Shown here: piece after piece, positions 4,540 through 60,933 of the stretch
Position numbering within the stretch: position 1 is the stretch's first letter
Layout: each line of letters begins with the position of its first letter
NCBI RefSeq assembly: GCF_008831285.2
Contig: NC_045149.1
Location: 7,094,417 to 7,158,416, forward strand
From: Nymphaea colorata
Taxonomy: Eukaryota > Streptophyta > Magnoliopsida > Nymphaeales > Nymphaeaceae
Direction of reading: 5' to 3'
DNA length: 64,000 nt
Notes under the pieces: model-generated
What the model was told of the DNA's origin: nothing
Database searches by the model: none
What the model saw: only the letters and a program-made list of their open reading frames with translations
Translations under genes and position numbers: made by a program

Positions 4540-5886
4540 CTATGAAAACACTTGATCTGCCTCAGCTGAAAGAGCACTTCATTCTCAGAAGCATAAGAGG
4601 AGACACCAAAGAATAATGGACACTTGCAACACAGTGCCATAAACAATAGCACCAACAAAATTAACTATTTGAAAAGACGAAAAAGGTAAGTAAAAAAGCT
4701 CACATCTAGATGATGGCTCAACCAAGACAATACGCATGGCTGCATTGTTGGGGGGGAGCTGAAGCCGCAAAGGATAAAGCTTCCCGTTCAGAGGATTACG
4801 TGAACAGATTATAACATTTTGAAGTTCAGTATCTTCTTCCACCTTCTCCAATAGCTGATCCAAGTTGGTTCCTTTGAACAAGAATGAATTCCATTCAATA
4901 GTATCATCTACATCACCATTTTCATCCGCAAAAGCATAATATATGAGCCGGCCATCGGACTTTGGTGGCGAATTCTTCAACGAATCAATAGACTGAAAGT
5001 TCGAAAATATGACTAAATCAATGTCAAAAAGTGTATGAGGGATCCACCAAAATCAATCACCCAATCGTTCCAAATGAAAAATTTTAGAAAAACTAATGCT
5101 CCATAAACCAAAACAAACCTCTAATCTACTCAAATTTCCTGCCGGTTCAGAAGCTTCACTTCCATCTACCTAAGCAATCAGAAAAAACAACCACTCATCA
5201 TTCTACGTAAATGTATAAGGAAAGAAAACAAGCCTCACAGCGAAAAGGAAAATCAGGTGGCATTATTTCTACCAAATTACAAACAAGAACCAGCGTCAAG
5301 GAATGAGATCAATGGAAAAAATTGTAAAAAATGATGAAATAAGGGATGAATTGTTCACCACATGGGCTTCTTGTCGTGATGGATCCTGTTGGGGGAGGAA
5401 ATTCTGTGTCGGCGACGGTGACGGCGATGGTTCCAACAAACGAATCTCAACCACATCAACCTCCCACAAAACCCAATCCTGAGTGGACGTCCGATGGGGA
5501 ATATCATGAGTCACTGAGTTTCTCCATGGTGGTAGTCCGCCATTACCACGCAGGAAGTTGCCATAATGCGTCTTTAACTTCACATTGAATCCCTCTCTAA
5601 TGGGTTCCCACTCCACCGATGAGTCCAGCCTTCTGGGCAGCGTCTGTAGGACTTTCCTCCCCGTAACACCAAGAAGGAAGGGCTCATTGGATGCCGTCAG
5701 GTAGCGGCCATAGCAGCTCTTGAGGCGAATGAAATTCCTTTGCTCCACCAACTCAACAGTCCATCGGGCATTGCGGGATGCACCACTTCGATCTTGGCAC
5801 ACTGATTCCTCGTCTTGCTCAGCATAGAGGTACTTGTCATGGTGGCTCCGTAGCCGGACAGCCTTCGCCTTGTTGAACAGGTCCAT
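4540..5886 (-). CDS. DUF569 domain protein (actin cross-linking-like), 4 exons
   Basis: Exons read on the minus strand are 5886-5359, 5169-5119, 4992-4704 and 4565-4540, giving about 297 residues. The N-terminal 150 residues form a DUF569/fascin-like beta-trefoil: MDLFNKAKAVRLRSHHDKYL, then RLKSCYGRYLTASNEPFLLG and VKLKTHYGNFLR. A Pro/Ser-rich linker follows, with a 17-codon mini-exon inside it. A second DUF569 module has GRLIYYAFADENGDVDD and GKLYPLRLQLPPNNAAM. The last exon is only 26 nt and supplies the end SEADQVFS, as is usual for the family. I start at 5886 because the longer frame opens upstream with TTG, not ATG. Plants have many DUF569 proteins; their biochemical role is poorly known and actin bundling is assumed from the fold. 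A YAG acceptor near 5908 suggests a leader intron. The exon 1 donor (GTGAAC) is the least certain junction. Confidence 0.88.
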
Positions 5887-7150
5887 ATCAAAGAACTTCA
5901 ATCAACCTACAAACGCTCTCTTGCAATCTACAAAAATAGGCAAAAAAGAAAAACCTTGATATGTGCATAGAATCAGAACAAATCAGAAGATTCAGAACAC
6001 AAACCTGGCTGAGAAATTAAATAATCTTGGGACATATTTCTATTTGTCTCCAGCATAACTTCATGCAGAAACCCGTAGAAAACTCTGAACCTTTTGAGAG
6101 CAAAACTCCCTGTCATTGACTGCTTTATTATCTTGCACCCTTGTGGACCTTTTTATGTTCATTGTGTAAAACCTGGTCCTCTACGGTCTTTAAAAGCTGC
6201 TGCATTAAATTTTGTATTTATTACTGTTAATTTTTATTTATTGTAGTTAATGGGTAATTTTTTCCATAATCAGTCCTCAATTCAACTAGAGGAGTTTCAA
6301 AAATAATAATAATAACAGTGACAAATAAGTTATAAATGGATCGTCCAAAGAGGAGCAGGGCCTGCACTTTTATCCATTAGCTTCTTTTTCTTCTTCATAG
6401 TTGTGTGCGTCGAGGGTCGTATCTGCAGAGGTATGTTGACTCCCTGGTTTCTTTCCAGCCTTCTCCACAATCATACATATGATGGTATCTGCATGGCTTG
6501 TATGACAATGAATGCCAAGAACATGTATGTAGATGTTTTTAATCAAGATTTGGGTTATATTTCTTATAAGCAATGTGTTGATTTATGTCGTGTACATCCC
6601 TCCTACATGTATATGCTTGTGTATCTTTGTACTACTAGTTTTATTGTGTCAATGCATGATACTCGATAGTTATTGACCTTGTATGCCATAATGCACATAC
6701 ACGTGCATGTAAATCTCTCAATATGTTAGCATGAAACATCCATAGCCTATGCATACAGACATCGAGAATAAATGCCCCCTTTCGTTACATAGTTATAAGA
6801 AAGGAAAAAGAGAAACAAAACAGATGAATGAAAGGGAATCAAAACCTGGGATGGGGAAACCCCTGATTTGTTTTTCTGCCTTATGGCTGCTTTCTCCTTT
6901 TCGATTGGAGCTGTTCTTGGTTAGGTCCTTTTGACCTGGAATGTGCAGAAAATTAGAAATAATAATAAGAAAATAATAACAAACATAATAATAATAACAA
7001 TAATAGAGGGAAAAGGCCACTTGGGGATTTTCAAGCGTTGTGCTGCCGGTGGCCTCGCTGGTCGGGGTGGCCGGAGACGGCCGCTGCAACGCTTGGCCAA
7101 ACCCCAAACCCTTGAAAACCTACAAGGAAAATGAAAGCGACAGGGAAGTG
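5887..7150. other. DUF569 upstream region
   Basis: Likely leader intron and promoter DNA of the DUF569 gene. On the minus strand a consensus acceptor (CGTTTGTAG) lies near 5908. An (AAT/ATA)-rich tract lies at 6957-7010. No other gene was seen. Confidence 0.5.
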
Positions 7151-7343: not shown

Positions 7344-7795
7344 GAAAATTTCCAATCTTCACCTCGAGTTTGTAAAACTTTTCTGAAATACTGTTATAAT
7401 GTGACAATTTTTATCACGCCCCATTTTACAGAAACATAATTTCGGAAAGAAGCTCGTTGACGTTCTACACTGTTTTGCAAATTGTAGACTTTAAGGTCTG
7501 AGCGATAAAATTACTGTGAAAAAAAAATCAATGGTACAAAGTTAGTCCTTTGTGCTACTTTTTTGTGCTACTTTTTTGAAAAGTAAAATTACATTGACAA
7601 AGTAATTTTTTATATATTTGATTTGAGTATGAAAAACCTTACAAAAAAAAAGTAAGTTTTCCCTGTATACGATACACAATAAAATCTTTGTGCCTCAAAT
7701 GAGGCCTAAAGATAGTTTGGCATACTTTTTAACGAATGTTTCATGAATCTTTATAAATTCATAGACACCTAATTCTACTGCTATACAAATTTTTA

Positions 7796-8949: not shown

Positions 8950-9180
8950 CTGTGGCGGAGCTAGACATATTTGGTGGCGGAGCTAGACATATTTGGCTGA
9001 GGGTACTCGCTATATATTTAAGAAGTATATCGTATGAACATATCTAAAAATTTAGAGTAAAAATTTATTGTTGCACAACATATAATTAAGAGTTTTTTAT
9101 TGAATTGTATGGTCAATTGCCCACACATGCCCCCCGCCCCCTGTCACTGTCGGTAGGTGAGTGCAAGTGGCGAACCGCCA
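8950..9180. mobile_element. Truncated hAT-type MITE of the GGCGGAGC family
   Basis: TGGCGGAGCTAGACATATTTGG occurs twice back to back from about 8955, matching the terminal motif of the better preserved copies at 9495 and 53738. No clear far terminus or target duplication is visible. Confidence 0.5.
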
Positions 9181-15455: not shown

Positions 15456-17399
15456 ACAGTTGGTAAAAACCATACTACTTGGGTAATAGACAAAAATAAA
15501 ACCTATTGAAATGAATTATTAAGATTTTTTTTTTAAAATCTAACCTTGTAGACATAATCTTAAGAGTGATTTTATGAGAAATATATCTTAAATTAGTTGT
15601 TTTCTTACTTAAATCATGTTGTTCTAATAGTAAAAAAATGAACGACCCTTATAACATCAAAATTTTGGTAGTATAAATTTTGGTAGTATAAAGATCAAAT
15701 TTTTACAAAAATGACACAAACTGGAGCAAAATTTATATTAAATTCGTGTTTATAAACACATTAGAAGGTTCATATTTTGTTTTAAACACTTTTTAACATG
15801 AATTTAAGAGGTCTTAGTTTTTATCACTTACACAGTCTCTTACCTACCAATCACTTTATATATATGTGTATGCTCAAAATTTTCAAAATTTTTTCTTTGT
15901 CAACCTCTCAACTGCTCAAACAACTTGAGCCGATACCCCATCAGAACATATAATCAGATTGAAAACAATAATTTCAAGTGGACAATTTGAATTTTTCAGT
16001 TTTCTCTTTTACTTAACTCGTATAGGATATAACAGTTCACGTAGAAATAAACTCTCATTCAATAATTCATAGAAATAAGAAGGCAACTTTTTGACGGCCG
16101 GCAAAAAGCAGCAAGATCCCCGGAGCTTCAAAAATGGCTTTTCATGGAAAAGTTGTAACAGCGCACACAGTTTTCATCTTCTCCAACAAACACTTTTCAA
16201 GTTTCGAAAAGGACTCGTCATTCTTTCATCCAAGCCGTCCCACATTTACATTAAGAAGAGAGAGAGAGAGAGAGGAATAGAATGTCTTAGTTCATATCAA
16301 TGTTATAAAAATCCGTTTGTGAATTGAATTGACGGAGCTCAATAAAAAATTTTAAAAACGTTTTGAAAAATAAATAAAAAATGCACAGAAATATCTAATG
16401 ATAAAAAATTTAATATATTTTATAAAATACTTTAGGTAAGTAGAAATAGATGGAGGAAAGCTAAAACTTCTACCCAACTCTCTTTTGATATATGGCTTTG
16501 TTTCAGTGTCTCGATGCGCCATCTTAATCGTGTTTCAACTTGCATATTAGTGGTTTTTAACATAGAGAGTTGACGTTTCAAGAATTCAAAACAAAAACTG
16601 GTCGCCTGCCTCGACTATAAATGTTACTTTTTTGGTATGCAAATAATGACATGTGTCATACTGAGCTGACAAACAAATTCACATGATCACTTGCAAAAGT
16701 TAGATGGCCTCACAAGGGCACAACTCCCCTTGGTTTTGAGAAAAAAGAATTATATGTTATAATTTAGGAAATTTTTTTTTTTGGCTTCTTTGAAAATTGT
16801 GAAAAACATATTTCAACTTACCAAAGATTTCGAACCTACTAGGACCACCCAGTGTCATGACACAATAAGTAGTGGAAAGAAAAAGAAAACTTAGCAATCT
16901 TGAATCTCACGAAGAGATCAGCTGCATGTTTGTTATTTTCAATTCTTTAAGGGTGTTTCCGAAAATTTCTCGAATTAAAATAAAAAGGAAGAAAGCACGA
17001 CGGGGAGGAGACGCCGCGGCAATTCGAAATCATTCAAAAAACTGACGCAATGTGACGGAAGTATCCCTAATCACTATAACCGCCGCAGTCTTAATTCCAC
17101 TAACTTAAGCGAGATCATCTGATCATGCGGGCTCCGGCTATGGGTATAATGGGTATTTCACCTCCAAGCGTGCGACCCGTTGGAGAGAAAGGATCAAAAG
17201 TGACGTAACCGAGGCTTTGCCTTGATCCTTTCACTGTGATTTGTTTAAAAGAAAATTTTAGAAAGAAACGTGCTTAAATTTGAATTTCAATTGACTGTCA
17301 GCGTGTTCCTCAAATTGTCCTTTTCTTTTTCACAATAATAAATGATTTTAGATACTTCACTGTTCTTCCCTTTTAAATCTCTGGAGATGGCGGAGAGTT
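14863..17399. other. Intergenic and distal cyclin promoter
   Basis: AT-rich DNA with an (AT)n tract and a GA microsatellite at 16256-16275. From about 16980 the sequence becomes richer in GC and probably belongs to the cyclin A2 promoter. No gene was seen. Confidence 0.5.
15401..15453. repeat. (AT)n microsatellite
   Basis: An uninterrupted AT run of about 26 units. Confidence 0.97.
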
Positions 17400-19500: not shown

Positions 19501-22500
19501 ATGGACAAGGAAAACGTATGTCATGGAGCTCCAAACCTCACAGGTCGAATCACTCGTGCAAGAGCAGCAGCCTTTCGCGCTTCTAGTATTGCCTTAGGAA
19601 CATCTTCAATGAAGCAAGAGAAGAAACACATAACCCGCAGATACCCTAAGCGAGTTGCGTTGGATGACAATCAACCTGCCGTAGGCATATCCAACTTTCA
19701 GAGCAAGCGGCAGGCGGTGCTAAGGGATGTTTCTTACCCTAAGCGAGTTGCGTTGGATGACAATCAACCTGCCGTAGGCATATCCAACTTTCAGAGCAAG
19801 CGGCAGGCGGTGCTAAGGGATGTTTCTAATATTATATGTGAAAGTTCATATGTTAACTGCATTAAAGCAGCCAAATTGAAGGTGAAGACCTGCCTTGCAG
19901 AGCCTTTTTCCCTCTGATTTAGCCACGTACTTGAGTACCCTTTGTCTGAATTTTTAAGAAGAAAAACCAAACAACCAGCAGAACTGAAAAACAATTAATT
20001 CTTTATGTTCTGTTATTCCCATGTTTTCTTCTCTCTTTTCTAATCTCAATTGTTATACCTCTGTATTAGTTCTTTTCTTGTTTTGGTTCTTTTTGGGGAA
20101 AACTAAATTTTGATCAAAATAAGCTTCAGACTAAAAGCTGCAAGAATGTTAAGTTGAAAACTGGCGTGAAGGACGCCACCTTTGGCCCCTCTGATGATGG
20201 ATCAACTGCAACAAATCAGGAGAATTCAGAAGTCATGACACAAAGAAGTATACTTGCTGATGCTCTGATTGACATTGAGCATGCGAAAGCAAATGAGGAG
20301 GTCCTAGAACTTTCTACAGAAAACATGGTCTTCACTGACAAAGGTCGGTTCCGCTCGTCTATTCTTTTCATGATATGTAAGAAAGAGTGGATATTTTCTA
20401 TTAAAAGCAGCATTTATTATCCATTCCCACTTCATGAGAAAATGCATTGACAATGTTAGCAGCTTCATGGTCTTCAATGTCTAAGGTGGTCATGCACATA
20501 CCTATATCTGTTTGAATTGCGATATACAATAACTGATGTTCTGTATTTCATTTCTCAAGAAACTTAATCAGGCAATCCAGGTTCATGAAGAGGCAACATG
20601 CTTCCTCTTTGCATATCCCTATTCTGTTCTTTCTTTCTTTAGTTTTGATCATCCATCTTTCCTTGTCCTAAATGAACTGTCTCATTGAAGGCAAAAATTT
20701 TGGTATCGGCAAAACTTGTGTCAAAATTTCGCCCCTTCTGATTTTGCCTAAAACTGTTAAGCATTGGAAAAGTTCTTGCCATGATAAAACTTTTATGACA
20801 ATATCTATTTTTGGTCAATGAAAATCAAATTGATGAGTTCCCTTCATGAAAAGTGAACAAGAAGGCTTTGATCTGACGTGACATGACCTTCAAGATCAGA
20901 TTGAAAGGAGTGCTTTCTGAAAATCTGATGAGTTAATGCCAACTATCAGATTGAATGAATCGCTGAAATTGTACGACCTTGTTCCAGGCATACAACCTGG
21001 AGACGTTTTTGTGTCTATCTGCTGGCCGTTAGAGAATCCATTGCTATTGTTAGCCAACATCTTCTACCACTTCGATAATGCCACACCGATAACTAGAATG
21101 AAAAAAAGGAATTTTTGGTCCCTCTGATTTTGCCTAAAACTATTAAGCATTGTCAAAATTCTTGTCATGATAATACTTTTATGACAATATCTATTTTTTG
21201 CTTTAAAAATGAGGCAAAACCTTTTGCCTTCAAAAAGTGGGAGAAGCTTTTGCTTAATTTTTTACCTGCAATTAGTGTTACATTAGCCAAATTTTGCATG
21301 TACAGTTTGGTAAAAAAAATTTCCTCTTTTTGAAGAGAAAAGCTTTGCCTCGTTTTTTTAAGGAAAAACCAATTATTATTGTAAAGCTTATGCCTTGGCA
21401 AAGCTTTTACATATTTTTAAGATTTAGGCAAGGGCGCACAAGTTTTTGGAAAAAGTTTTGCCAAGACTAAAACTTTTTCCCTCAATAAAACGGCCTCCTG
21501 ATTTGTTTTTGGTAGTCGATGCTAGTTTTTTGGATTATTGTGTTGTATTAGAATTAGATGGATTAGTGGATAATATTTTCTGTAATCATGATAATGAATG
21601 TTTCAGTGTTTTAATCAGGTGACACAGTCAATGATGTAGACATGGAACTCCAAAAATCAACTGCCATGCACGTTATAGATATTGATGTTGACCATAAGGA
21701 TCCTCAGATGTGTAGCCTTTATGCCTCAGAGATCTATGCTTATTTACGGGAGGCTGAGGTCAGTGTCGTGGCAAGACCTATATCTAATTGAATCCCTGAT
21801 CCTGTAATGTGCCTTTCAGAAAGTAATCTTTGCCTGGAGGATAGCCAGACCTTTTATCTTTTTCTGCATACTAAATAATAGAAGCATTTTAGTCCTGCAA
21901 GGATATATGCATATGTTAAAACATCATAATGGCATGCTGTATCATTTCAGTTATGCTATAAAGCACACGCTTCTTTATTATGTGGAATAAGTCAAGTATC
22001 TAATAAAAGGACTACTGAGACAGAGCAGCAGATTCTTTCCTAAATGAGATTTTCGTTTACAGGCTGAATGGGTGGCTGTTGCAGTATTCAAGCTGAACAT
22101 CCTCAGTTAAGGATATTGTAATTCTGCCAATCCTGCTGCCAAATCCTGTCAACAATGAGATCTTTGATGACTGAAGTAAACTGCAAGAATGTTAATGATG
22201 ATTTGTTTTTGTGTTTGAAATGAAGGATCCAAGGTATACTTTTCTAATTTTTGCTGCTTGACATGCAGCAAGATGAATAATCTATCATGTATCAATTTTC
22301 ATAGAATTTAAAAAACTAAAAGACTTCTAGATGGCTGAAAAGGAGAAAGAATGGAAAAGATGGGCTTCTAACGTTAAAAAGCTGTTGAAGGAAAAATTCA
22401 ATCTCTGCTTTGCATGTATTGGATCTTCCAAATAGGTTTTGTGAGGCTAATGCCGTAAATCCCACAAATGACATAAAAGGACGACCAGTGCTAAAATAGC

Positions 22501-25500
22501 TCAAAATAAGCTAGTCATCTATTTTGGAAAGGTGATTTTGGTTATTCGGATGCAGCTTTCCCTTTTAGCATGCGATAGACCATGATATCAGAACAAGATA
22601 TTTGAGAATATAGTCAAGGTTTTGGCTTTGACTCGTTTTTATACTGAGATGAAATAGTATAGATAACTACAAGCATGGATATATTGAATGGTCTTCTCAC
22701 GAGAAGCAAGATTTAGTGAGGCAATGTGGTAGTTCTAGAACAACTTTTTTTCAAGCACAACAGACCGCACCAAAGCTGTGCAGCTTGCACACACTCACAT
22801 GCACATGCACAAACAGAGTTAGAACTGATGCTCTCATTGATGAATTACATCTTGTTGTTACATTTGTTTTTCTTAGCTTTGATGCCATCTGGTTTCTTGC
22901 TCAGTGTTGACATATTGTTATATCTCTAGTTGAAGCGCAAGCCATCACATAATTACATGAGTATGGTTCAACAAGATATTTCTCCAGCTATGCGGGCAAT
23001 CCTTATAGACTGGCTTGTTGAGGTTGATCTCTCTCTCTCTCTCTCTCTCCCCATATGTGTCTCTGTGCGCGTGTGTAAAATCTCTTTTATCTGATTTTAT
23101 AAACTTTTCTACCTGTGAAGGGTATTTCTTCCACATCCAGACCTTCCGGGTCATGATCTTGCAAAAGATTAGTGTAGACATTATATGTTTTTTTTCCGCA
23201 GGTATGTGAGGAGTATAGACTGGTTCCAGATACTCTATATCTGACTGTCTTCTACATTGATCGGTTCCTTTCTGGCAATCCTGTTGAAAGAAAGATGCTA
23301 CAGCTAGTTGGCATTACGTGCATGTTTATTGCATCGTAAGCACTTTGCCACAGTATTTTATCCTTTTCTTGCTTAATTTCTTATCTATTTGGATGAGGTT
23401 TCTACCCACTGCATAAATGCTTAAATGTTGTTGTCTAGTGTGAGCCCTTTGTATTACAATGGAGGCTACTTTTGCAAGGTCTTTCATTAAGATATATTGC
23501 ATAACTCCAACATTTGAAACGTGGCCAATTTTTAACTCCTTGAAGAAAACATTACTTCAAAGACTTGTTTGACTGGCTTGTGTGGGTTTATTGGTTACAA
23601 GCCCTTCCTAGTTGGATCTAACTTTCACTTGCAGGCTGAGAGAGAGAGAAGGAAAAGTTGATGGGGTTTTAGCTCCTTTGCTTGATGCAGAAATAAACTT
23701 TACCCTTTCAAAGGCACCCCTATTTTTCCAAAAACAGGACCAAGGATAGGTACAATGTTGGTATCTAAGCGCAACAGGAGACGTTGTAGGGAAACTTGGT
23801 GGTTTGGCTACTTAGAACCATTAAGTTAGGTGCCCAAATTTGCCTAGGTTGCCCAAGAAGCCTTTGGCAAGCTTAAGCGCCATTTAACCATCTAATATCT
23901 AAGCGCACCAGGAGAGGGTGTAGGTCAACTAGGGGGTTTCGCTGCTTAGAACCATTAAGTTAGGTGCCTAAATTTGTCTAGGTTGCCCAAGGAGCCTTGG
24001 ACAAGCTTGAGCACCATTTAACCACAAACCATTGATTTTTCATATTGTCAGTGGCATTGACACCTCACCAATGCTTTGATTTGCTTGGTCTGCAGGAAGT
24101 ACGAAGAGATATGTGCACCTCGTGCAGAGGACTTTTGTTTGATTACAGACAATACATACAATAGGGAACAGGTATTTCTGAAGATCTTTACTTTGCACAT
24201 GTTTCTTTTGCTTTTCTCTTGCTTCCTAATTTTGCAAGTTATAGAAAGTGAACCATGAATGTTCTTGTATGTATGTTTGCATAACATACTTTCTTGAATA
24301 TCAAGTTGGAGTCTTGCCACTGAATACTCTTGTACAGAGAATTTCTCTCATTGATGACCAAAATTCATCATTTTAGAATGAGATTGGTTGAAGGTTCTTA
24401 TTGCTTCTTTGTTCCTTTTCTGTGATCCAAGCAGGATCTGGGCTGTCTACGCAAATTTGCAAATTTTTCCAAAAGTAACTGCTTTTATATGGTTGCTTTA
24501 TTTTAAAGCCTTCATGCTAATGAGGACCAGCTGCCTATCAACAAAAACCCTTTCAAATTGTGATCATGAAACATGGAAAATTAGCTTAGTAAAGGATAGT
24601 GAAGTCCCCTTTTAGGTTGATAATCTCCATAAGTAAATCATTAAATGGTGGATTGATGTAGGAAGCAGCTGTTTCTCAGGTTTCTGATAAATTTCCAAAT
24701 TGTTCAGCACAATCACCATTCTGCACTTGTTTGCAAGTTAGTCTTTGTTAGATATAAACAAGCTTCCACCAATCCTTACATCATCACAGCATGGCAGTTT
24801 TACTGGGTCACTCACTCTTAGAAAATGCTTTAGGTCCTAAAGATGGAGATTGATATCTTGAACCATTTGCGCTTTGAATTGACTGCACCTACTACAAAGA
24901 CATTTCTTAGGTAAAGACTCTTTTTCTGGTCTCAGCATCAATTGCTTTTCTTAGCTATTTGAGCAATGAACTTCTTGAATTGAGAAGAACCTCTTCTTTT
25001 TGGTGACTTCTGCAGGAGGTTTCTGCGAGCAGCCCAAGCTTCGTACAAGGTACTGTTGCATTTTCAGATTTGGAACTTCCCACCAAAGATTACTGCGGGT
25101 CTTATTTGTTGAAGTGTATTCCCTTGTTCAGATGGATCGAGACTTTTCATTGGAGTTCTTGGCAAATTATCTAGCAGAACTTACATTGCTTGATTATGGG
25201 TTCCTGAAATTCTTCCCTTCTCGTATAGCTGCATCTGCTGTATTTCTAGCCAAATGGACGCTGGACCAAATGTCACACCCTTGGGTCTCTTCTTTCTTCA
25301 ATCTTGTCTCTTTCCATAAATTTTGCCATGTCATCACTGATGCTTATTTTCCTCACCGTGGGGTTTGTTCTACAGAATCCAACCCTGGAGCATTACACCA
25401 ATTACAAGGCTTTGGAGCTAAAAAATGTTGTGTTTGAAATTCATCGTATACAAATGGACGCCAAGGAGGATGCCACTACAAATCTCTCACTGAAAGCAAT

Positions 25501-25758
25501 AAGGGAGAAGTACAGCCAACAAAAGGTATGTCTTGGAAGCTGCTAGATGCAACTAGAATTCTGAGTGCTATTGTGCCTATTCAACCCTTCACCTGGTACA
25601 ATGGGTAAATGAAATAGGTCTTCTAATTAGAAAAATTTGCTTGCATAGGTAAGAGTAGTCATGAATTTATCTTGAAATATTATCTCTTTTTATGGTGGCA
25701 GTTCAAGTCAGTGGCTGCTCTATCGTTCCCAAAACCAGTTGATACACTTTTTCTGTGA
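19501..25758 (+). CDS. CYCA2: A2-type cyclin, 11 coding exons
   Basis: Coding exons are 19501-19881, 20130-20343 (or from 20124), 21619-21758, 22930-23022, 23202-23335, 24096-24171, 24834-24910, 25016-25049, 25132-25284, 25376-25525 and 25702-25758. All phases agree and give about 502 residues. The N-terminus starts MDKENV, then TRARAAAFRA and KRVALDD and RDVSN motifs as in plant A2 cyclins. The cyclin box has the MRAIL substrate-docking patch at residues 266-270 within DISPAMRAILIDWLVEV, then DTLYLTVFYIDRFL, ITCMFIASKYEEICAPR and FLRAAQASYK. The C-terminal cyclin fold has LANYLAELTLLDY, IAASAVFLAKWTLDQ and HPWNPTLEHYT. The protein should bind and activate CDKA/CDKB in S to G2/M in the nucleus and be destroyed through the APC/C. 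Oddities are a perfect 31-residue tandem duplication (residues 48-78 and 79-109) and an altered destruction box. Subtype A2 rather than A1 or A3 rests on overall resemblance to Arabidopsis CYCA2;3. Confidence 0.93.
19642..19827 (+). repeat. Perfect 93-bp in-frame tandem duplication in cyclin exon 1
   Basis: Bases 19642-19734 and 19735-19827 are identical by eye. Each copy encodes 31 residues beginning YPKRVALDDNQ and ending QAVLRDVS. The duplication keeps the reading frame and sits in the disordered N-terminal region that carries degradation signals. Confidence 0.97.
20738..21199 (+). repeat. Direct repeats in cyclin intron 2
   Basis: A segment of about 78 bp containing CTGATTTTGCCTAAAACT and TTTATGACAATATCTATTTT occurs at 20738-20816 and again at 21123-21199 with few changes. 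After the second copy (21200-21480) come many short inverted runs of GGCAAAA/TTTTGCC, so this part of the intron looks like remains of a fold-back element. Confidence 0.75.
23027..23049 (+). repeat. (TC)n microsatellite
   Basis: A CT run lies just downstream of the exon 4 donor of the cyclin gene. Confidence 0.9.
23761..24024 (+). repeat. Tandem duplication (about 134 bp) in cyclin intron 5
   Basis: Two diverged copies start with ATCTAAGCGCA at 23763 and 23897. They share TTAGAACCATTAAGTTAGGT and end with CATTTAACCA. The array lies wholly inside the intron before the KYEEICAPR exon. Confidence 0.8.
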
Positions 25759-30748: not shown

Positions 30749-33681
30749 TCACCTTATGCTATTGACACTTGCAAATGGCCCAAGTGGCTTGCTGACTGGC
30801 TTTTTGTTTGTTTCAGGATTCCCAAACACATTCCAGAATCGCAATGTTTCATCTCCTGCAGAGGCAGATGCCACTGTGCACCCATCTGGACTCTGAAAAA
30901 TTTAAGAAACAAAAAGAAGCATGTCAGCATTAGATATAAAATTATCCTCTTGTATAGTGTATTATCATAGAAAACATAGTTTCTTACCATAGCCATGAAC
31001 AAAACCCTTGAAGTATGACCGGTTAGCTCTGCCATCCTAACCATCGATGGATATTTCCACAATGTCAACTGGTTCTGATCAAACCCATGCGAACTGAGAA
31101 GTTCCCTTTCAGTTTTACTCCATAAGAGTGCACAAACTTGTGAACCCGTATCTACAGAGTTCAGGCAGGACCCAGTATGAGTGTTCCAGAACTTAATGCA
31201 GCGGTCGCTGCCACCACCCCCAGATGCAAGTAGATTTCCCTGGAATGGGCACCAGGCCAATGCTTTCACTGCAGCCCTATGGTCATCCAGCCTGTGTAGC
31301 CATTGATTCTGTCTAGCATTTTGCTCTGATGCCATTGTCCGATCCCAGATGTGCAGAAGGTTGTCATTCCCTCCGCTGGCTAATTGTTGGCCTGAGCTTG
31401 ACCACTTTAATCCACAAACTTCTTGTTCATGTCCTTTGTATTCTTCAACTATATGAGATCGAATGCGCACATCATTATTAAATATTAAACCATCCATTCC
31501 ACCAGTCGTAAGAATGTGAGAATTCCATGCAAGAGAACCAACTCTTGATTGATGACCACCTCGTAGAGTTCTCAACTGTAATGATTCATGAAGTAGTACT
31601 GTCATATACCAGAAGGTTAACCAAAGTGGCTTAAGGTTCCACTACTGAACGGGGAGAGGTATACCTGCTTACTTGCCACTGTGTCCCACAACTGAACTGC
31701 TGAACTCTTCAAACCAACGGCTATATGCTTACCATCAGGAGCCCAGCTAACGCTTGTAATTGGGCCACTGTCCTCATCAACTGACATGAGCTCCGAAGCA
31801 GTACCTTCTGATGCATCCCAGAGATAGAGAGAGCGCCCAAGAGCAATTGCCAAAACATTTCTGCTGCTCCAATCAAGCAAATTCAAGTAGTAGTCATCCT
31901 CTAGGTCAGGTGCATCCAGAGTTCTCTCTGCAGACTGAGATATCCAAAACAGAAAAAGAAAAAGAAAAGAGAACCTCTCACAATTAGAACCCCTGAAGTC
32001 AAGGAGCCAAGAATTAGGCCTGCAAAAGACAACCAATATTTTAAAGACCCACCTGAGGAATGTATCTGCGAGGCTTCACGGTCCTAGAATGCTGCGGTGA
32101 TGAAGAAACTTCCCATGGAATAGTCTCAGTAGGCTCCGGAGGTTTGCTTCTGAAAGCAAGGATCCTGGTCCTGTTCTTCAGGCAGACCTCCGCTAACCGC
32201 TTCCTATATGCTTCCTGTGATGGTGATAGAATGCCTACTGGCTTCTCTTTCTTCGAATCCACCATCAAATACTGAGCAACATCAAGATCCATAGCCCCTC
32301 TGTTGGGAATAAACCTGTCGTACTGGAAAACAACAGTACAATAATAACGTGTTCAGATTTGGTTTACTTGAATAGACAGGGCAAACAAGCCACCATGCAG
32401 TCTTGTAGCAATTCATCAGACAAATTTATGTCTGTCAAAAACAGATTTAATACTGCAAGTACTGAAAGAGTGCTACCAAAACTGATTTCAACTCTTCCTG
32501 CTGCACATTTAATGCTTACCAACTCGTAAATGCACATAAATATGCATTATACGACTACAACATCAAGTAACATAAAACGTGCCATTCTAATAATATGCTG
32601 ATTTAATGATAAAAACACCAACTGGTAGCCAATAAAAGGAGTCCCTAATGTCAATCAATAACAGATATAGCCGAAAATTGGGCCACACCAAATTTATGTG
32701 GAAAAATCCTCGATACTAGGTTAAAAAAACCACGGGCAAGAAGGATTTATACTTCTAAGAAGAGCTGTTACACCGGTGACCTGAGTCCTTCAATGTCTTC
32801 AATATAAAAAAAAACAGCAATGGCAGCTCACAAAAGATAGATCCGTTACCTCTATTTGATTAAGAAGAAAGAAAAATTAAGGAAAAGCCAAAGGAAGCAA
32901 CGAATATACACAAAGCGGTGCTGTTCCCAACCTGAACCTCTTGCATTTCTCCTCTTTCTCTGTTCCCCACGCAACGACCCTCTGATCTTGGGTTCCTCCT
33001 CTCTTCTCTCTGCATTCACAATGGCACACACCACCACAGCACACACTACCCCTCCTGTGCCCTAGTTTTCTTTCCTGTCGGGGCCTCCCATCCCCCCACC
33101 GTGAGGTACCCGCCTCACTTGAAAGAAGAAAATCTCATATAATGATAAGAAAACACATGAAACTCATCAATGAGGATGCCCATGAACATGAATTTCATAT
33201 AATGATAAGAAAACACAGGAAACTCATCGATGAGGATACCCATGAACATGCAAACCCACGAAGGAATTGATTTACTTCCATTAGATGGATCTAATAATTC
33301 GCACACGAATCCACTGAAAAACTCTGCGTCCCAAAAACCCGCTAGCGGAAGGCAAACTGAAAAAACTCATCCGGATATTGAAGAAAGCATGCGAAGCTCA
33401 AGACCCATCATCATATCGAGAAAACCACAAAGGGACTAAGTTCTTGCAGTAATAAACTCACAAAAGAAAAATCCGGAAAAACCAAATACCAGAATCTACA
33501 AAGAAAAACAGAAAAAACAAAAATCTCATGCCATAAAATAATCGCAAAAGCTTGTTGAAAATCCAGATGATACCTGCGGCCGGCAGGGTGCGTTTCTGGG
33601 GACGATGCACTCGTGAAGAAGAGTGCGTGGGCGAATCTTGGTAGATGACAACGGTGATGCGGCTTCCGCACCATTGGCCAT
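30749..33681 (-). CDS. CDC20: CDC20 APC/C co-activator, WD40 protein, 5 exons
   Basis: Exons on the minus strand are 33681-33574, 32322-32053, 31934-31665, 31575-30988 and 30892-30749. All are in phase 0 and give 459 residues, normal for the family. The C-box DRFIPNR is at residues 38-44, the Mad2-binding-type motif RILAF at 89-93, then seven WD40 repeats from about 127 ([122 protein letters not shown]). The chain ends in the Ile-Arg tail (SVNSIR) that docks on APC/C. The order and wording fit CDC20 rather than CDH1/FZR/CCS52. It recruits cyclins and securin for ubiquitylation in mitosis. No KEN box precedes the C-box, unlike Arabidopsis CDC20.1. The two intron 1 splice sites leave RPQ directly before YDRFIPNR. 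Confidence 0.95.
32640..32790. mobile_element. Possible retroelement-derived fragment in CDC20 intron 1
   Basis: The segment has phrases such as AATTTATGTGGAAAAATCC and CCACGGGCAAGAAGGATTTA that resemble LTR-type repeat sequence common in plant genomes. There is no coding capacity. Assignment to a family is a guess from wording only. Confidence 0.3.
33135..33254. repeat. 60-bp direct duplication in CDC20 intron 1
   Basis: Two copies of a unit beginning TCATATAATGATAAGAAAAC start at 33135 and 33195, exactly 60 bp apart, with a few mismatches. Confidence 0.85.
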
Positions 33682-37336: not shown

Positions 37337-40300
37337 TCAGGCTATGCAACCATTGAAGCCTTTTCTCAAGGCAGTTTCATCCAAATTCTTGCCAATGAAA
37401 ACCAGCTTGCTTTCCCTCTTTTCATCAGGGCCCCATGGCTTGGCTGGGCAACCGTCCAACATTGAATGTACACCCTGAAGGATCAGAAATTGATCAGCAC
37501 TTAGCTTGAACCCTTAGAAAGCCTCTAAATCCAACCACAAATGACAAAATGTAGTTGTCTTCATAAAAAAAATCATTTATGTACATGCATAGTCATCCTA
37601 AATAAATAAAAAACACTTAACTCATTTTCTAGAAAATACTAAAAAATTTGCTGAACCTCACCAAAATTTTATTCTTTTCAGGTAATCCAAAAATCTGTCT
37701 CTTCACTCCTTTAAACATGGTTTTTAGTTTATTAAATAACTTGGGTAAGAACCATATCCTGCAGATAAGAACATACCTGAACGACATATCTACCACAAGC
37801 ATCATTTACTGAAAGCACACCTTTCAAACGGTACAAATCATCCCCTTTTTCTTCCACCACCATCTCAAGCCAATCATTAACCTATATAGTAGGAGTGAAC
37901 AAGTGGTTGAACCACCAAAAGAACAAGAAAGGAGAGAAGAAGATGAGAGGCAGACAGCCGTTGAAAAAGCCAAAGCTACTAAAAGTGCAGAATAGGTAAA
38001 CGAAAGAACGACCATAATGACCATCTTCTTACTGTAAAAAATGATGAGTTTCTATACTAGTATTTCATCTAAACCAAATTACAGAAAGATATAATACTAA
38101 ACTACAAAAGGTAAGTGCCACATATACATTCAGGCCCTACGTACAGACAGTAGGTTCAAGATAACCATCACACAGTAAGTTCCGAAATTCAGCAGAAGGT
38201 TTTATAAATTTAAGATGAATGAAGAATAGTGTCAAGTAAATAAATAAAATAAGAACTTAGATAGTAAAACAGCATCTAGTTTTCATTTTCAATCAACTTT
38301 AGCCAGGACATAGAAAGATGAAAGCATCCGCTGGAATCCTTGAAACCACAAACTTGGGAGTAAATAGCTTGGCCAACGACAATCATGATGAGGACCAGTT
38401 CCTTGTGTTCACGAGAGTCAGGGATGCCTTAAATTGACAATCAGATTCATCACAATTTGGCAACTATTTGCATGTCTATTGACAAAATGAATTTAGTTGC
38501 AAGCACATTATCTTCTTACTAGAATAGTCTGAGATAGTTCCCAAAAATTGTGTTGGACTGCACAGCATCATGAGAAAACCCTAACAAGCACAGTTCAAAA
38601 CTCAACCATATCTTGGCAGTACTGCACAGAAGGAACATGCATTTTTTCAATGTTGAAGGGCATGACATTCATATTTATCAAGACCTACTAACAGAATAAC
38701 TTATGCAACACCACTGGCAGGAAAATCTTACAACATTGAGCATATGCTTCTAAGTTGCAACATCCAAAATCTGGGACCATCACTAGCCATTTTAAAAAAG
38801 CTGGGCCAACTACATGTAGGAAGAGTTGCCGCTTCATCTTGGATGAAGAGATGACTAATGAAACAGAACTCCTAGAACTCATGGTAGTGCATGAACATGA
38901 GCAAGATTTACCTCATCAAGATCCAGAGTCTTGTCAGAAACAATACTCACAGAAGAGACAGCATCATCATGAACATGGTCATGATGATGCCCATGATCAT
39001 CATCTGGAAAGGAAAATTGGAAAAAATAATTCAGAATAAAATGAGATTAAACTTGATCAACCAGATGCATTAGTTGGTGTATATGCAATTATCAACAAAA
39101 ATTGGTTTACAAATTACAAAATTAGTCCAACTTAACTTTGAGCGTAAAATCATTTAAAGATTACAAGAACAAGAGTTAAGTACTTCAACACCCAAGCATG
39201 ATATGTTCACATAACATAAAGAATTACCATGACAATGCTTATCATGCTTACTGGACTCTTCAGTTACATCCCCTTCAATTTCACGTTCAATCCTGCAGAG
39301 AAAAACCATAAAGTTGAAGGAAATAAAAAAAAAGCTGAGCATAACAAAAAACGATATATCTAGAAATATGTGCCCAAAAAACCTGTCAAGTTCGTATCCA
39401 CCAATTCCCAAAACAAAATCCATATCAACAGCACCAAATTTTGCTTCTTTGGTTTGAGCCATCCCATTGATGAGCTACAATGACAAAATCAGACATATAA
39501 GAACATCTCAACAACTAGTAACGGTAATACTAGAAAATCCAATTAAACAAAAATCTGCAAATCCAACTTCTGAGAATAACAATGACAAACCAGACCTTAA
39601 TTCTCTTTCTCAATGCCTTCAGTTCTGCTTCAGTAACCAAATCTATCTGCCAAATAACAAAAGAAATACAAAAATCAAACTTTTGAAATCCAAAACATGA
39701 ATATGCAATCTGCATGAAAACTTGTACTGGCAACTCACCTTGTTCAAAATAATCCTATCAGCGTATGCAACTTGTTCAACAGCTTCATTAACCACCCACC
39801 TTGGTTTGACCTCATCCAAATGTCGTGTGGCATGCTTACTATCAACTAGTGTAACAACACCATCAAGTTTTATATGTCGTGAGACTAAATCATCTGTACA
39901 AAATGTTTCAATAACAGGGCCTGGTTTTGCAAGACCTGTAAAGTACGTAATCTTGAAGTTATATATATATATATATAAAAAGGAAATCTGTTCACTCAGA
40001 TATCCTCAAGTGAGGTCTTTGATAAGAATAAATTTATAAGTATCCAACACAAAAAGATAAGATTTTTCACATTTAAATATGTTTTTTTATCTTTTTATTA
40101 TCTTGAAAGACAATTATCCACTTTACCTGTCGTCTCTATGATAATATGGTCAAACATGCCCTTCTTCTTTGTGACTAGCTTCAACAACATTTTAACAAGA
40201 TCCCCTCGTACAGTACAGCAAAGGCAGCCATTATTAACCATAATAATGTCCTCTGCCACTCTATTATGGCTAGCCACCAATGAGCCATCTATGTCCACTT

Positions 40301-42286
40301 CTCCATACTGTGAGACAAAAAGGCATACATGAACATCAACATACCTCAACCGGATGGACCAAGGGAGGATGCACAGACATAGAGACATACAATGAAGTGT
40401 GCACATCCAATGGAAGGAAAATCCAACAGAGGATGTTTCACAAGAGAAGTGAAGGACGCTTTGTGCAACTGAATGCTGAAATTTCCACATGTTCCATAGA
40501 CTTTTCATTCTGGAAATCATTGTTGCATGCTGACATGCAAAAAAAATGGAAGACCATCACCGTGCAAGGACCAGGACATAATCAGATGCCAATGATACTT
40601 GTGTAAGTGCAGATTAGTAATATATAACTGAATGACCTTTCTGAACAAAAGCCTCGCAAGAAATTACTCTATATCATAGCAGTATTCTCTTTAAAGATTC
40701 TCAATCATCAAAGGTTGATACTTTTCTTCCATGGTGGTCAGAACCTGGCATAGGAAGTGCGATGAATACATGAAGTAAAAGTACCTGCTAGCGTCAGAAC
40801 TGTAAATCAGTACCATAGGAAGCAGCATGAGTACCGTATTGCTTTGCTCACTGATATGGCATATCGGCTAGTATTGTCCTATTTTTTGCTTTCATGAATT
40901 TAAATATTATTTTAAAATGTTTCGAATTGATTTTAAAAATGAAAACCTGTATCAGCCTTGTAGATATCGGCTAACAGGCCCAATATGTTGCACCGATATG
41001 GAGTGATATTGATATATGGATTTAAAGTGTTATAGTCTAAGGAAGAAACACTGCAAATGGTCGAAGGAATAAATCCAGATAATACTAGCCTCGGTACAAA
41101 GCACTTAGCAGAACACTCTAGTTTGCCCCGATCTATAATCAAAGGTCACTTTGCTAGAGTGACGTTTTGTATTGTCCATTGAATGTTTTTCACTTCTTCC
41201 ACAAACGTTGACATGTTGAACTGGATGTATCGGAAACTGAGAGGAAGGATATGAGAAAAAGAAAACCACCCTAACCGCTCGTTCAGCAATTCTATGAGTT
41301 AAGACAACTATGGAACTTTTCTATATGCAATATAAATCCAGTCTTGTTATCATAAGGTTTCATCAAAAGACAGAAGAAGCAATAAAACATCAACTGCCGA
41401 ATTCGGATTACACACCACAATAAAAAGGCAGAAGCACGTTACCTCGTTCTCTATAACAGCAATTCTCTTTCCGTGTTGAGAAGTTAAGATGTGGTTCAAC
41501 AGTGTAGTCTGCCATCAACAACTCCGAACAAGAAAAAAAAACGACTCAAGTCAAGTGTTTGATACCAAACAATAATAAAATAAGGCCTAGCCTAGGCAAA
41601 AAGAAAAATTCATTATGGAAAATAAAAACATGGGTAGTCTAGAAGATGATAAGCTCCATAAGTTAGAGAATCACTTTCTAAGAACGAAAATAAGAACTTC
41701 AAACAAGAAGTTCAACAACTCAAAGCTGGGGCCGTCTTTCTGGTCTGGCCACGTAAACAGCCTCAAATTTTCCTCGATGCATCATGGTCACTCTAATTCT
41801 CGCTAAAATGTTAACTAGCTTAATTTTCCTTCAAAGACACGGATGGTTCGACCATTCTCAACAATTCGAACCAATCAGACAAGAAAACTACAACTGACGA
41901 CCACAAAAATCCGGAACTCAAAAAGGAATATCGAAAACAATTCCATTTTTGTTGATTCTTCTAACTACTGAAAGGAGGCAGCAAGGGAATACCTTTCCGG
42001 AGCCGAGAAAACCAGTGATCACGGTGGCGGGAACGCGAGAGTCGGGCTCAAGGGCGGCGGAGACGGCTTCGGCAACGTCGTAGCGAGGATGGGACGATGT
42101 CACCATGGACCTAAGTGGGTGAACTTGGGGATGATTCCAAGGGCTGCTCGATCGAGAAGAGAAGGAACAGATAACTCCAAAGAACGAGGAGAAGGGTGGG
42201 AAGAAGGTCGATGAAGGAGACTGAAGGAAAAACTGGTTCAAGGATTTCGATGCTGACTTGCAGCAGAGGAAGACCTTGAAGGCCAT
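37337..42286 (-). CDS. CobW/P47K-family GTPase, probable plastid metal chaperone, 10 exons
   Basis: Exons on the minus strand are 42286-41993, 41508-41443, 40307-40127, 39935-39739, 39646-39596, 39474-39383, 39292-39228, 39003-38912, 37881-37777 and 37474-37337, giving 426 residues. The first 70 residues are rich in Ser, Phe and Pro, like a transit peptide. The GTPase core has Walker A GFLGSGKTT at 92-100 (split by intron 1), the metal site CLCC at 148-151, IIIETTG, and NKID at 245-248. A His-rich linker lies at about 310-330 (HDKHCH, HGHHHDHVHDD). The C-terminal CobW domain has GVLSVNDACGRYVVQGVHSM and ends LRKGFNGCIA. COG0523 proteins hand zinc or other metals to client enzymes using GTP. 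The layout resembles Arabidopsis At1g26520 and PTAC17 (At1g80480). I start at the ATG at 42286; an in-frame GTG just upstream is not used. Confidence 0.92.
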
Positions 42287-54515: not shown

Positions 54516-54644
54516 ACTGGCTTATATACTTCTTTTGAGGTGAAATATCATTTAGTTAAGAGATGTCTCTCCCAGTAGTATTGCGTAGGAAAGATCATTT
54601 AATTGGTTCTGATTTGTTGGATTGTCAACTTCAATCTGGCTATT

Positions 54645-56444
54645 GGTTTAGCAGGTAATCTTGGATTAGATCAACATAAAGGTTAGAACTCTTGACTTTC
54701 TTTAAGTTGGTAGTCTTAGAAGTATACCAATTTGACATATGCTCGGAAGTATCTCTTTCTTGTCAGGATTTAGTTAGATCCAAAGTTGGCCTCCAATTTG
54801 AAAATATCTAAACATATAACATAATAATGTTCAATTTTGATTCAAAATTGATTAAGCAAGTAATCTTGGATTAGATCAACACTTCGCTTTCTTGTCAGGA
54901 TTTAGCTAGATCCAAAGTTGGCCTCCAATTTGAAAATATCTAAACATAGAACATAATAATGTTCAATCTTGATTGAAAATTGATTAAGCAGGTAATCTTG
55001 GATTAGATCAACACAAAGGTTTGAACTCTTGACTTTCTTCAAGTTGGTAGTCTTATAAGTATACCAATTTGACATATGCTCTGAAGTATTTCTTTTTTGT
55101 CAGGATTTAGCTAGATCCAAAGTTGGCCTCCAATTTGAAAATATCTAAACATATAACATAATAATGTTCAATCTTGATTCAAAATTGATTAAGCAGGTAA
55201 TCTTGGATTAGATAAACACTTCGCTTTCTTGTCAGGATTTAGCTAGATCCAAAGTTGGCGAAAATATCTAAACATAGAACATAATAATGTTCAATCTTGA
55301 TTGAAAATTGATTAAGCAGGTAATCTTGGATTAGATCAACACAAAGGTTTGAACTCTTGACTTTCTTCAAGTTGATAGTCTTATAAGTATACCAATTTGA
55401 CATATGCTCCGAAGTATTGCTTTTTTGTCAAGATTTAGCTAGATCCAAAGTTGGCCTCCAATTTGAAAATATCTAAACATATAACATAATAATGTTCAAT
55501 TTTGATTGAAAATTGATTAAGCAAGTAATCTTTGATTAGATCAACACTTCGCTTTCTTGTCAGGATTTAGCTAGATCCAAAGTTGGTCTCCAATTTGAAA
55601 ATATCTAAACATAGAACATAATAATGTTCAATCTTGATTCAAAATTGATTAAGCAGGTAATCTTGGATTAGATCAACACAAAGGTTTGAACTCTTGACTT
55701 TCTTCAAGTTGATAGTCTTATAAGTATACCAATTTGACATATGCTCTGAAGTATTTCTTTTTTGTCAGGATTTAGCTGGATCCAAAGTTGGCCTCCAATT
55801 TGAAAATATCTAAACATATAACATAATAATGTTCAATCTTGATTCAAAATTGATTAAGCAGGTAATCTTGGATTAGATAAACACTTCGCTTTCTTGTCAG
55901 GATTTAGCTAGATCCAAAGTTGGCGAAAATATCTAAACATAGAACATAATAATGTTCAATCTTGATTCAAAATTGATTAAGCAGGTAATCTTGGATTAGA
56001 TCAACACAAAGGTTTGAACTCTTGACTTTCTTCAAGTTGATAGTCTTATAAGTATACCAATTTGACATATGCTCCGAAGTATTGCTTTTTTGTCAAGATT
56101 TAGCTAGATCCAAAGTTGGCCTCCAATTTGAAAATATCTAAACATATAACATAATAATGTTCAATTTTGATTGAAAATTGATTAAGCAAGTAATCTTTGA
56201 TTAGATCAACACTTCGCTTTCTTGTCAGGATTTAGCTAGATCCAAAGTTGGTCTCCAATTTGAAAATATCTAAACATAGAACATAATAATGTTCAATCTT
56301 GATTCAAAATTGATTAAGCAGGTAATCTTGGATTAGATCAACAATTCGCTTTCTTCTCAAGATTTAGTTAGATCCAAAGTTGGCCTCCAATTTAAAAATA
56401 TCAAAACATAGAACATAATAATGTTCAATCTAAATTCAAAATCG
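54645..56444. repeat. 1.8-kb tandem array with higher-order structure
   Basis: The phrase GATTAAGCAGGTAATCTTGG, or a close variant, starts at 54645, 54850, 54982, 55187, 55310, 55515, 55647, 55852, 55975, 56180 and 56312, and the array stops at 56444. Spacings are 205, 132, 205, 123, 205, 132, 205, 123, 205, 132 and 132. The short units are the long unit with about 73 bp removed, and the 123-bp form lacks a further CTCCAATTT. Four units make a 665-bp higher-order repeat present twice in nearly identical form (54982-55646 and 55647-56311). There is no coding capacity. Confidence 0.95.
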
Positions 56445-58090: not shown

Positions 58091-58175
58091 AGATCCAAAC
58101 TGAGGATCTCTATAACGTGGATCTCAAATCCACGATCCAAACTGAGGATCTCTATAACGTGGATCTCAAATCCAC
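58091..58175. repeat. 42-bp tandem duplication
   Basis: GATCCAAACTGAGGATCTCT starts at 58092 and 58134, and the two copies are identical through CTCAAATCCAC. It lies upstream of the PPR gene. Confidence 0.9.
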
Positions 58176-58914
58176 GTTACATGTTAAAAACCAACGATTT
58201 AAAATCGGATGAGAGGAGGTTTAATTTTAACTCCATGGATTTGAGATCCCAAAGATCTGAGGTCACCATAAATCTTAAATCTACGATGAAACAAACACAT
58301 CATAAGTTTACAAATTTGAGATTCCCAATAATCTCAAATCACATTGAATATGAGTCCGAGGTTACCAAACACTCCCTGATGTGTATCAAATCCAAAAAAT
58401 TTGTGTTCAGATTCAAGAAAATTTCAGAACCAAATCTAAACAACGGACAGCGTTGGGAGCTTTTCCGCCTTAGTTTTGTTTAAAAATTAAGAACCTTCGA
58501 TGCATATTGCTTGAGTGTGTCAAAAAGGAAGACGAAAAGCATAAAAAAGTCAAAAAATTATGATTCACTTTCGAAACAATATAATCCAAAAACATAATCC
58601 GTGACAAGTGAGTTATGTTGAATACATCTATATCATTATATTAAGCGAACTTATTGTCTTTTAGCTTGAGACAACCAACAACCCACAAAATTTCGTGAAT
58701 ATAAGACCCTTAATTGAGGACTTGTAGCTAGCCACCCACTGTTTTCAAGAAAATTTGAAGGCTCTTCCATTCTTTTTATTTCAAAAGTTTTAGGCTGCAT
58801 CGTGACTTAGATGATGATTATGAAAAGCAATCGAGTTGATTCGGAGAAGAAGCTCTCTCTCTCTCTTTTTCACACAGATCCATGTTGATGCATGGTCGAT
58901 CTCATCCAAGGTGA

Positions 58915-60933
58915 ATGAGATCCTTTAAAGAGTGTGTGAGGCTTCAGACCTTCTTCATTAAAGCTGCGGTTGTGGCGCCTGTTCATGTTCTCAACCAGAT
59001 CATTGATGCATATTCGAAGAATTGGTTCATTCATGAAGCACGCCAATTGTTCGATGAAATGCCCGAGAGGAATGTTTTTACTTGGAACAATATGATCAAT
59101 GGTTACATAATAAACAACGACCTCTTCGAAGCCCGGGGTCTCTTCGAATTGGCCACTGAAAAAGACACAGTCAGCTACAATTCTATCATCTCTGGCTGCA
59201 CAAGAAACGGCTGCATGGAGGAGGCAGTCGACCTTTTCAGAGAAATGCAAGCAAATAGCATCAGAATGGATGAATTTACTCTTACTACCATGCTAAACTT
59301 GGCTGCAAAATTATCAGAGCTGTCTTATGGGAAACAAATTCAGTCGTTTTTGGTTAAAACAGCAACTTCCAGTGGTTTTTTGTGCAGTTCAATTATAGAT
59401 ATGTATTCCAAGTGCGGAAATCTGGATGATGCAGTCAGACTGTTTGGTGAAATGAGTGAGAAGGACTTGGTTTCCACTAATGCAATGGTTGGGGCGTATT
59501 TTCGGAATGGGCAATTGCAGCAGGGTCTCAAACTTTTCAAGGAAATGGACATTCATGACACAGTCTCGTGGAACACTGTACTATCAGGTTATGTTCTGAC
59601 GGGTGATCCTGAGAAGGCTCTGGAAGTTTTCATTGACATGGCTCAAAGTGGAGTGCCACAAAATGGTCACACTTACGGAAGCATTTTGACTTTGTCTGCA
59701 AGTCTGAAGAACGTTAGGCTAGCTAAGTCTGTTCATGCATGCGTTTTACGAAATGGCTTAGTTTCTAACTCATTCATTACCAGAGGTTTAATTGATGTCT
59801 ACTGTAAATGCGGCAATCTAAAGCATGCTGAATTTGTTGCCCATGAAATCCCTCACGAGAATGCCTATTCAATCACGTCTTTAATTGTGGGTCATGCAAA
59901 CAGGGGTAACCTCTATGAAGCTAGCCGGGTTTTTGATCTTTTGCCTGAGAAAAATACTGTTGCGTGGACTGCCTTGATCACTGGGCATTTGAGACTTCAG
60001 CAGTCTGACATAGCATTGAGCCTTTTCAGGGAATTTCAGAAGAAAGAAGCAACAAAGACAGATGAGCTGATCCTTATAAGTGGCCTTGGCGCATGTGCTC
60101 TTCAAGCAGCTTTTGAACATGGTAAACAAATTCACAGTTACATAATACGGAAACATATACAAGTGAATGAGAAAATTGGCAATGCATTGCTTGACATGTA
60201 TTCAAAATGTGGTAATATAAGATATGCTGAAGAAATTTTCCGAAAAGTTATGAACAGGGACTTGGTTCTGTATAATTCCATGATAGCTGGATATGCGAAT
60301 CATGGGAGAGAAATGGATGCAATCAACCTTTTTGAGGAAATGATCCAAGAAGGAAAAAAGCCCGACGAAATTAGCTTCATTGCAATTTTTTCAGCATGCC
60401 GTCATGCTGGGTTGGTAGTGGAAGGTGAGAATTTCTTCAATTGTATGGTAACTGATCATGGCATTAGTCCTGGACTGGATCACTATGCTTGCATGATTGA
60501 TTTGTTTGGACGATCAAATTGCATGGACAAGGCGGAGGACATGATCAAGAACATTCCACAGGAACCAGATGCAATAGTTTTGGGAGCATTCTTGAATGCC
60601 TGCAGGATCAATGGGAAAACAAAACTTGCAGGAGTTGTAGAAGAAAAATTATTAAGTTTGGAAGCTGATAATGGGGCAAGATACGTCCAGTTTGCTAACC
60701 TTTATGCAGCAGAAGGAATGTGGAGTGAAATGGGAAGGATAAGAGGGAAGATGAGAGGTAAGGAAGTTAAAAAATTTGCAGGGTGCAGTTGGATACATGT
60801 ACAAGACAAGCTTTTCACATTTACTGCTGGCGATAGCTCTTGCTCAGAAGCCCAGGCAGTTTATGCAACTCTAGAGAGTTTGAATGAAGAAATGAAAAGG
60901 GTACAGTTTTCATGCAAGGTTCTGGAACACTAG
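58915..60933 (+). CDS. PLS-class pentatricopeptide repeat protein with E/E+ domain
   Basis: A single uninterrupted exon encodes 672 residues, about the length of Arabidopsis At3g18840 (PCMP-E92), which it resembles along its whole length. Repeats of about 35 residues run from residue 24 (QIIDAYSKNWFIHEARQLFD, NVFTWNNMINGYI, IIDMYSKCGNLDDAVRLF, DTVSWNTVLSGYV, DVYCKCGNLKHAEFVAHE, LLDMYSKCGNIRYAEEIFR, DLVLYNSMIAGYANHGREMD). From about residue 540 an E/E+ module follows (AIVLGAFLNACRI, CSWIHVQDKLFTFTAGD). There is no C-terminal DYW deaminase. Such proteins bind organelle RNA and often select C-to-U editing sites, borrowing a DYW partner. The N-terminus goes almost straight into repeats, so a targeting peptide is not obvious. 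The ATG follows GGTGA and is the first in frame. Confidence 0.94.
   Translation: MRSFKECVRLQTFFIKAAVVAPVHVLNQIIDAYSKNWFIHEARQLFDEMPERNVFTWNNMINGYIINNDLFEARGLFELATEKDTVSYNSIISGCTRNGCMEEAVDLFREMQANSIRMDEFTLTTMLNLAAKLSELSYGKQIQSFLVKTATSSGFLCSSIIDMYSKCGNLDDAVRLFGEMSEKDLVSTNAMVGAYFRNGQLQQGLKLFKEMDIHDTVSWNTVLSGYVLTGDPEKALEVFIDMAQSGVPQNGHTYGSILTLSASLKNVRLAKSVHACVLRNGLVSNSFITRGLIDVYCKCGNLKHAEFVAHEIPHENAYSITSLIVGHANRGNLYEASRVFDLLPEKNTVAWTALITGHLRLQQSDIALSLFREFQKKEATKTDELILISGLGACALQAAFEHGKQIHSYIIRKHIQVNEKIGNALLDMYSKCGNIRYAEEIFRKVMNRDLVLYNSMIAGYANHGREMDAINLFEEMIQEGKKPDEISFIAIFSACRHAGLVVEGENFFNCMVTDHGISPGLDHYACMIDLFGRSNCMDKAEDMIKNIPQEPDAIVLGAFLNACRINGKTKLAGVVEEKLLSLEADNGARYVQFANLYAAEGMWSEMGRIRGKMRGKEVKKFAGCSWIHVQDKLFTFTAGDSSCSEAQAVYATLESLNEEMKRVQFSCKVLEH

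Follow-up and report, generated by a model that had tools for sequence, protein, structure and literature searches.

In Nymphaea colorata, a mitotic-type cyclin gene carries a perfect tandem duplication of 93 bp in its first coding exon. This is probably a real, young and small duplication that arose by patch-type repair in exon 1 of a working gene, which we take to be of the CYCA2 type, with a nil-to-modest effect. In the 64-kb stretch of DNA analysed here, referred to as the window, the repeat covers positions 19642-19827, with copy 1 at 19642..19734 and copy 2 at 19735..19827, both on the plus strand. TRF reports a period of 93, 2.0 copies, 100% matches, 0 indels and a score of 372, and a direct comparison showed no difference between the two 93-mers, the match extending by 0 bases past the junctions on either side. 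An open reading frame with an ATG at 19501 contains the unit in frame and translates it twice as YPKRVALDDNQPAVGISNFQSKRQAVLRDVS, 31 codons each, which correspond to residues 48-78 and 79-109. The perfect in-frame tandem duplication of 31 codons described in a previous sequence-only reading is thus borne out by TRF and by the comparison of both copies. The same reading considered the duplication to be either recent or artefactual, which is supported by the identity of the copies, zero divergence being equally expected from an assembly error. The two copies are real in the sequence and are probably also real in the plant's DNA. We searched all six frames of the window for a diverged further copy of the 31-residue unit, and among the ten best scores the highest outside the gene was 35, as compared to 155 for a copy. 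With an assumed mutation rate and all sites taken as neutral, the bound on the age of the duplication comes to about 2.3 million years, a figure that is illustrative only.

The cyclin gene spans 19501-25758 on the plus strand and contains 11 coding exons, which were set by hand from the ATG to the stop codon at 25756-25758 and encode a product of 502 aa in a frame that is open throughout. All ten introns are GT..AG, the splice sites having been picked by hand to be so. Exon 1 (19501..19881) contains both 93-bp copies and the only KEN motif of the protein (residues 3-5), which is located in the N-terminal tail outside the repeat. It is followed by exon 2 (20130..20343; a manual reading with GT..AG sites), exon 3 (21619..21758), which runs into the cyclin box, exons 4 (22930..23022), 5 (23202..23335) and 6 (24096..24171) in the cyclin box, exon 7 (24834..24910) with the end of Cyclin_N and the start of Cyclin_C, exons 8 (25016..25049), 9 (25132..25284) and 10 (25376..25525) in Cyclin_C, and exon 11 (25702..25758), which holds the stop codon. 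The product matches the Pfam domains Cyclin_N (E 1.2e-50) and Cyclin_C (E 2.2e-33), as do A/B-type mitotic cyclins, and its closest solved structures are cyclin B1 and cyclin A2. These domains and relatives confirm the identification of the protein as a mitotic-type cyclin, and the gene model agrees with the proposed placement of the repeat in exon 1 and the N-terminal tail. Judging from the predicted model, the gene is apparently intact.

The tentative assignment to the CYCA2 (A2) type was made from features of the N-terminal tail and the C-terminus, among which we take the N-terminal RITRARA and CESSY-like stretches to be A2 features. The 31-residue stretch is presumably single in the A2-type cyclins of other plants, which would make the single-copy state ancestral. 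Intron 5 of the same gene holds a two-copy tandem repeat of 134 bp (23762-24024, 87%). A comparison of exon 1 with the PDB gave one match, to a bacterial-type chaperone at E 1.3, which was taken as chance. No relatives of exon 1 were found in viral contigs, where one stretch fit the pattern, or in bacterial and archaeal genomes, where 49 stretches did; given that the collections consist of viral contigs and of bacterial and archaeal genomes, nothing is inferred for plants.

We also scanned the window for other perfect tandem duplications, with units of 12 to 399 bp and with units of fewer than 8 different dinucleotides dropped. Five remained after this filter: the 93-bp duplication and those of 21 bp (374-415), 22 bp (8952-8996), 15 bp (15660-15692) and 42 bp (58092-58176). 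The extra match at their junctions ranges from 0 to 3 bases and is absent for the units of 21 and 93 bp. When applied to 20 first-order Markov resamples, the same scan came up empty in all 20, which excludes that the 93-bp duplication is a product of chance. TRF adds a perfect 13-bp duplication at 7549-7578 and dinucleotide runs, which were removed by the scan filter, as well as an older, diverged two-copy repeat of 60 bp (33131-33250, 93%). Since the duplications in the window are so varied, the genome of Nymphaea colorata seems to generate them at many lengths and ages. At 54642-56343, TRF identified about five units of 337 bp in an array that has an internal period of 132 bp.

The preferred explanation, repair of a break, would start from two nicks, staggered by about 93 bp, that give a break with complementary overhangs. 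Both overhangs would then be filled in and joined, so that the stretch is copied once. The length would be a multiple of three by chance, and the frame therefore survives. The repeat has the form expected of patch-type repair, being a perfect tandem copy whose junctions show no additional homology. When two rice assemblies were compared, tandem duplication proved the commonest source of insertions and dominated below about 125 bp; its share of events started at 70%, fell past 125 bp and had dropped to 5% at 200 bp (PMC7971508). Earlier work cited in the same source attributes tandem duplications to the repair of adjacent nicks, and for perfect tandem duplications the alignment ambiguity is described there as equal to the insert length; because the extension at the junctions is zero, this also holds for the 93-bp case. 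In mouse and human cells, small tandem duplications are explained by the fill-in of complementary break ends, while the duplications made by polymerase theta more frequently show microhomology (PMC8355091). By analogy, the size and junctions of the 93-bp repeat fit such a fill-in, although the overhangs in that study were shorter, about 50 bp. That the duplication is real is further supported by the four other perfect duplications of differing lengths in the same 64 kb, by the diverged repeats of 134 and 60 bp, which are unlikely to be inventions of an assembler, and by the open 11-exon model with both Pfam cyclin domains.

An unlikely but serious rival is that the ends of two contigs overlapping by 93 bp were abutted rather than merged during assembly, so that the overlap was written twice. 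Identical copies with zero extension at both junctions are exactly what unmerged contig ends would look like, and the odd length of 93 points in the same direction, as a de Bruijn k-mer could have an odd length. However, the window is without N, and the reading frame is preserved, which has a chance of one in three. Furthermore, the other four perfect duplications, at 15, 21, 22 and 42 bp, reveal no recurring k, and neither TRF nor the scan detected a second perfect 93-bp duplication in the window, so that these 64 kb, which are a small sample, show no sign of a k-mer fault that recurs.

If the duplication is real, as we favour, its consequences depend on the motifs that it carries. The sequence-only reading had placed degrons in each copy, and the motifs that it named, an RxxL (RVAL) and QAVLRDVS, are indeed present in both; that they are good degrons is not well supported, as they are off consensus. 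The D-box is given as RxxLxxxxN in PMC9289945 and as RxxLxxxxN/Q in PMC3110789, where the looser RxxLxxxN/Q is also printed. No match to RxxLxxxxN/Q was found anywhere in the 502-aa protein, and thus in neither copy. The stretch RVALDDNQ (residues 51 and 82) fits only the looser pattern, of which a third match, at residue 372, sits within the cyclin fold. In QAVLRDVS (residues 71 and 102), Gln replaces the P1 Arg in both copies; we assume that the A2-type cyclins of other plants have Arg at the first position of such a box. The following P9 residue is Tyr in copy 1 and Asn only in copy 2, where the box reads QAVLRDVSN (residues 102-110). The duplication thus left out the Asn context, and the Asn-bearing candidate is still single. 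There are two lysines per copy and 19 in the first 215 residues, so that ubiquitin acceptor sites are not short. Judged by its motifs, the duplication is predicted to double weak motifs only.

The protein would gain 31 residues in its N-terminal tail, with a second RVALDDN, a second QAVLRDVS and two extra lysines, and the KEN motif would be 31 residues further from the cyclin box. Altered recognition by the APC/C, as suggested in the sequence-only reading, is possible, and the doubled segment could matter; the default expectation is a neutral or mild effect, because the motifs are weak. The effect on APC/C-driven turnover is likely to range from nil to a modest shift.

A functional gain is very unlikely in our judgement. 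The two copies would then offer equivalent low-affinity sites for an APC/C activator (allovalency), and destruction of the cyclin would come sooner or proceed more quickly, which would affect endoreduplication or ploidy. The tail does combine KEN with two RVAL stretches, and PMC9289945, which proposes allovalency, regards it as unexplained that many APC/C substrates repeat degrons of the same type. It has also been proposed that divergence of the D-box tunes the choice of plant cyclins by CDC20 (PMC3110789), and the CYCA2;3 complex is, according to PMC3095333, under negative regulation by APC/C-CCS52. But with neither copy containing the full box, and with Tyr rather than Asn after QAVLRDVS in copy 1, the added sites are poor ones, and the identity of the copies is uninformative on selection. 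In yeast two-hybrid assays, Arabidopsis CDC20s bound three of nine cyclins (CYCA1;2, CYCB2;1 and CYCB2;2), none of them a CYCA2, and CCS52 was bound by none of the tested cyclins (PMC3110789), although the excerpt of that source does not state that the nine included a CYCA2. According to the same excerpt, all Arabidopsis mitotic cyclins have a D-box; the excerpts of PMC4036514 and PMC3747318 hold nothing on the sequence of a CYCA2 D-box. When the plant cyclin SDS was given a D-box, it persisted for a shorter time in meiosis (PMC3649987), and no title on a tandemly doubled plant cyclin degron was among the literature matches listed.

A CDC20-like gene, of the APC/C activator kind, is located downstream of the cyclin gene on the minus strand, tail to tail, with its stop codon (30751-30749) about 5 kb from that of the cyclin. 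Four exons were recognized between 32322 and 30752, and the first exon was not located. The product matches the Pfam family WD40_CDC20-Fz (E 1.9e-124), its best solved relative is human CDC20 (E 4.4e-116), and its DRFIPNR stretch fits the C-box DR(F/Y)IPxR given in PMC3095333. The linkage may be due to chance. There is a slim prospect that a very recent natural doubling of a degron-bearing cyclin segment, about 5 kb from the gene of a protein that may act in destroying this cyclin, provides a natural test of how repeated weak degrons affect the timing of destruction. Elsewhere in the window, a long ORF of 672 aa at 58915-60930 (+) encodes a PPR protein with an E motif, a DUF569 beta-trefoil ORF is found at 4588-5901 (-) with an associated ubiquitin-like domain in the adjoining ORF, and two ORFs at 39646-40556 (-), probably exons of one gene, match the CobW/HypB/UreG nucleotide-binding domain.

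The opposite outcome, in which the insertion weakens degradation and stabilises the cyclin by moving QAVLRDVSN 31 residues further from KEN, has the slimmest prospect of all: the positions of both motifs in the tail would allow it and the binding of KEN and D-box is cooperative (PMC9289945), but the tail is presumably flexible and the RxxL of copy 1 is still at its original distance. A pseudogene reading was dropped because the whole reading frame is open. As it stands, the repeat adds one to the small tandem duplications of plants and lies by chance at an interesting spot; if real and fixed, it would offer a clean natural pair, one copy versus two, for studying the repetition of weak APC/C motifs and cyclin turnover.

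Compared to the plant CYCA2 (A2-type) cyclins, the 502-aa protein is similar in having Cyclin_N and Cyclin_C and a KEN motif near the start, but differs in that a 31-residue stretch is present twice and an RxxLxxxxN/Q box is absent. The D1 and D2 sites of human cyclin A2 are presumably not a fresh tandem copy. Like the protein studied here, human cyclin A2 combines more than one D-box-like site with KEN in one tail, D1 and D2 being used alternatively (PMC9289945), whereas the motifs of the 502-aa protein are off consensus. Finally, the repeat resembles the small perfect tandem duplications attributed to patch repair in plants (PMC7971508) in being shorter than about 125 bp, with two perfect copies and no junction homology, but differs from them in that it lies within a coding exon, where it keeps the frame.
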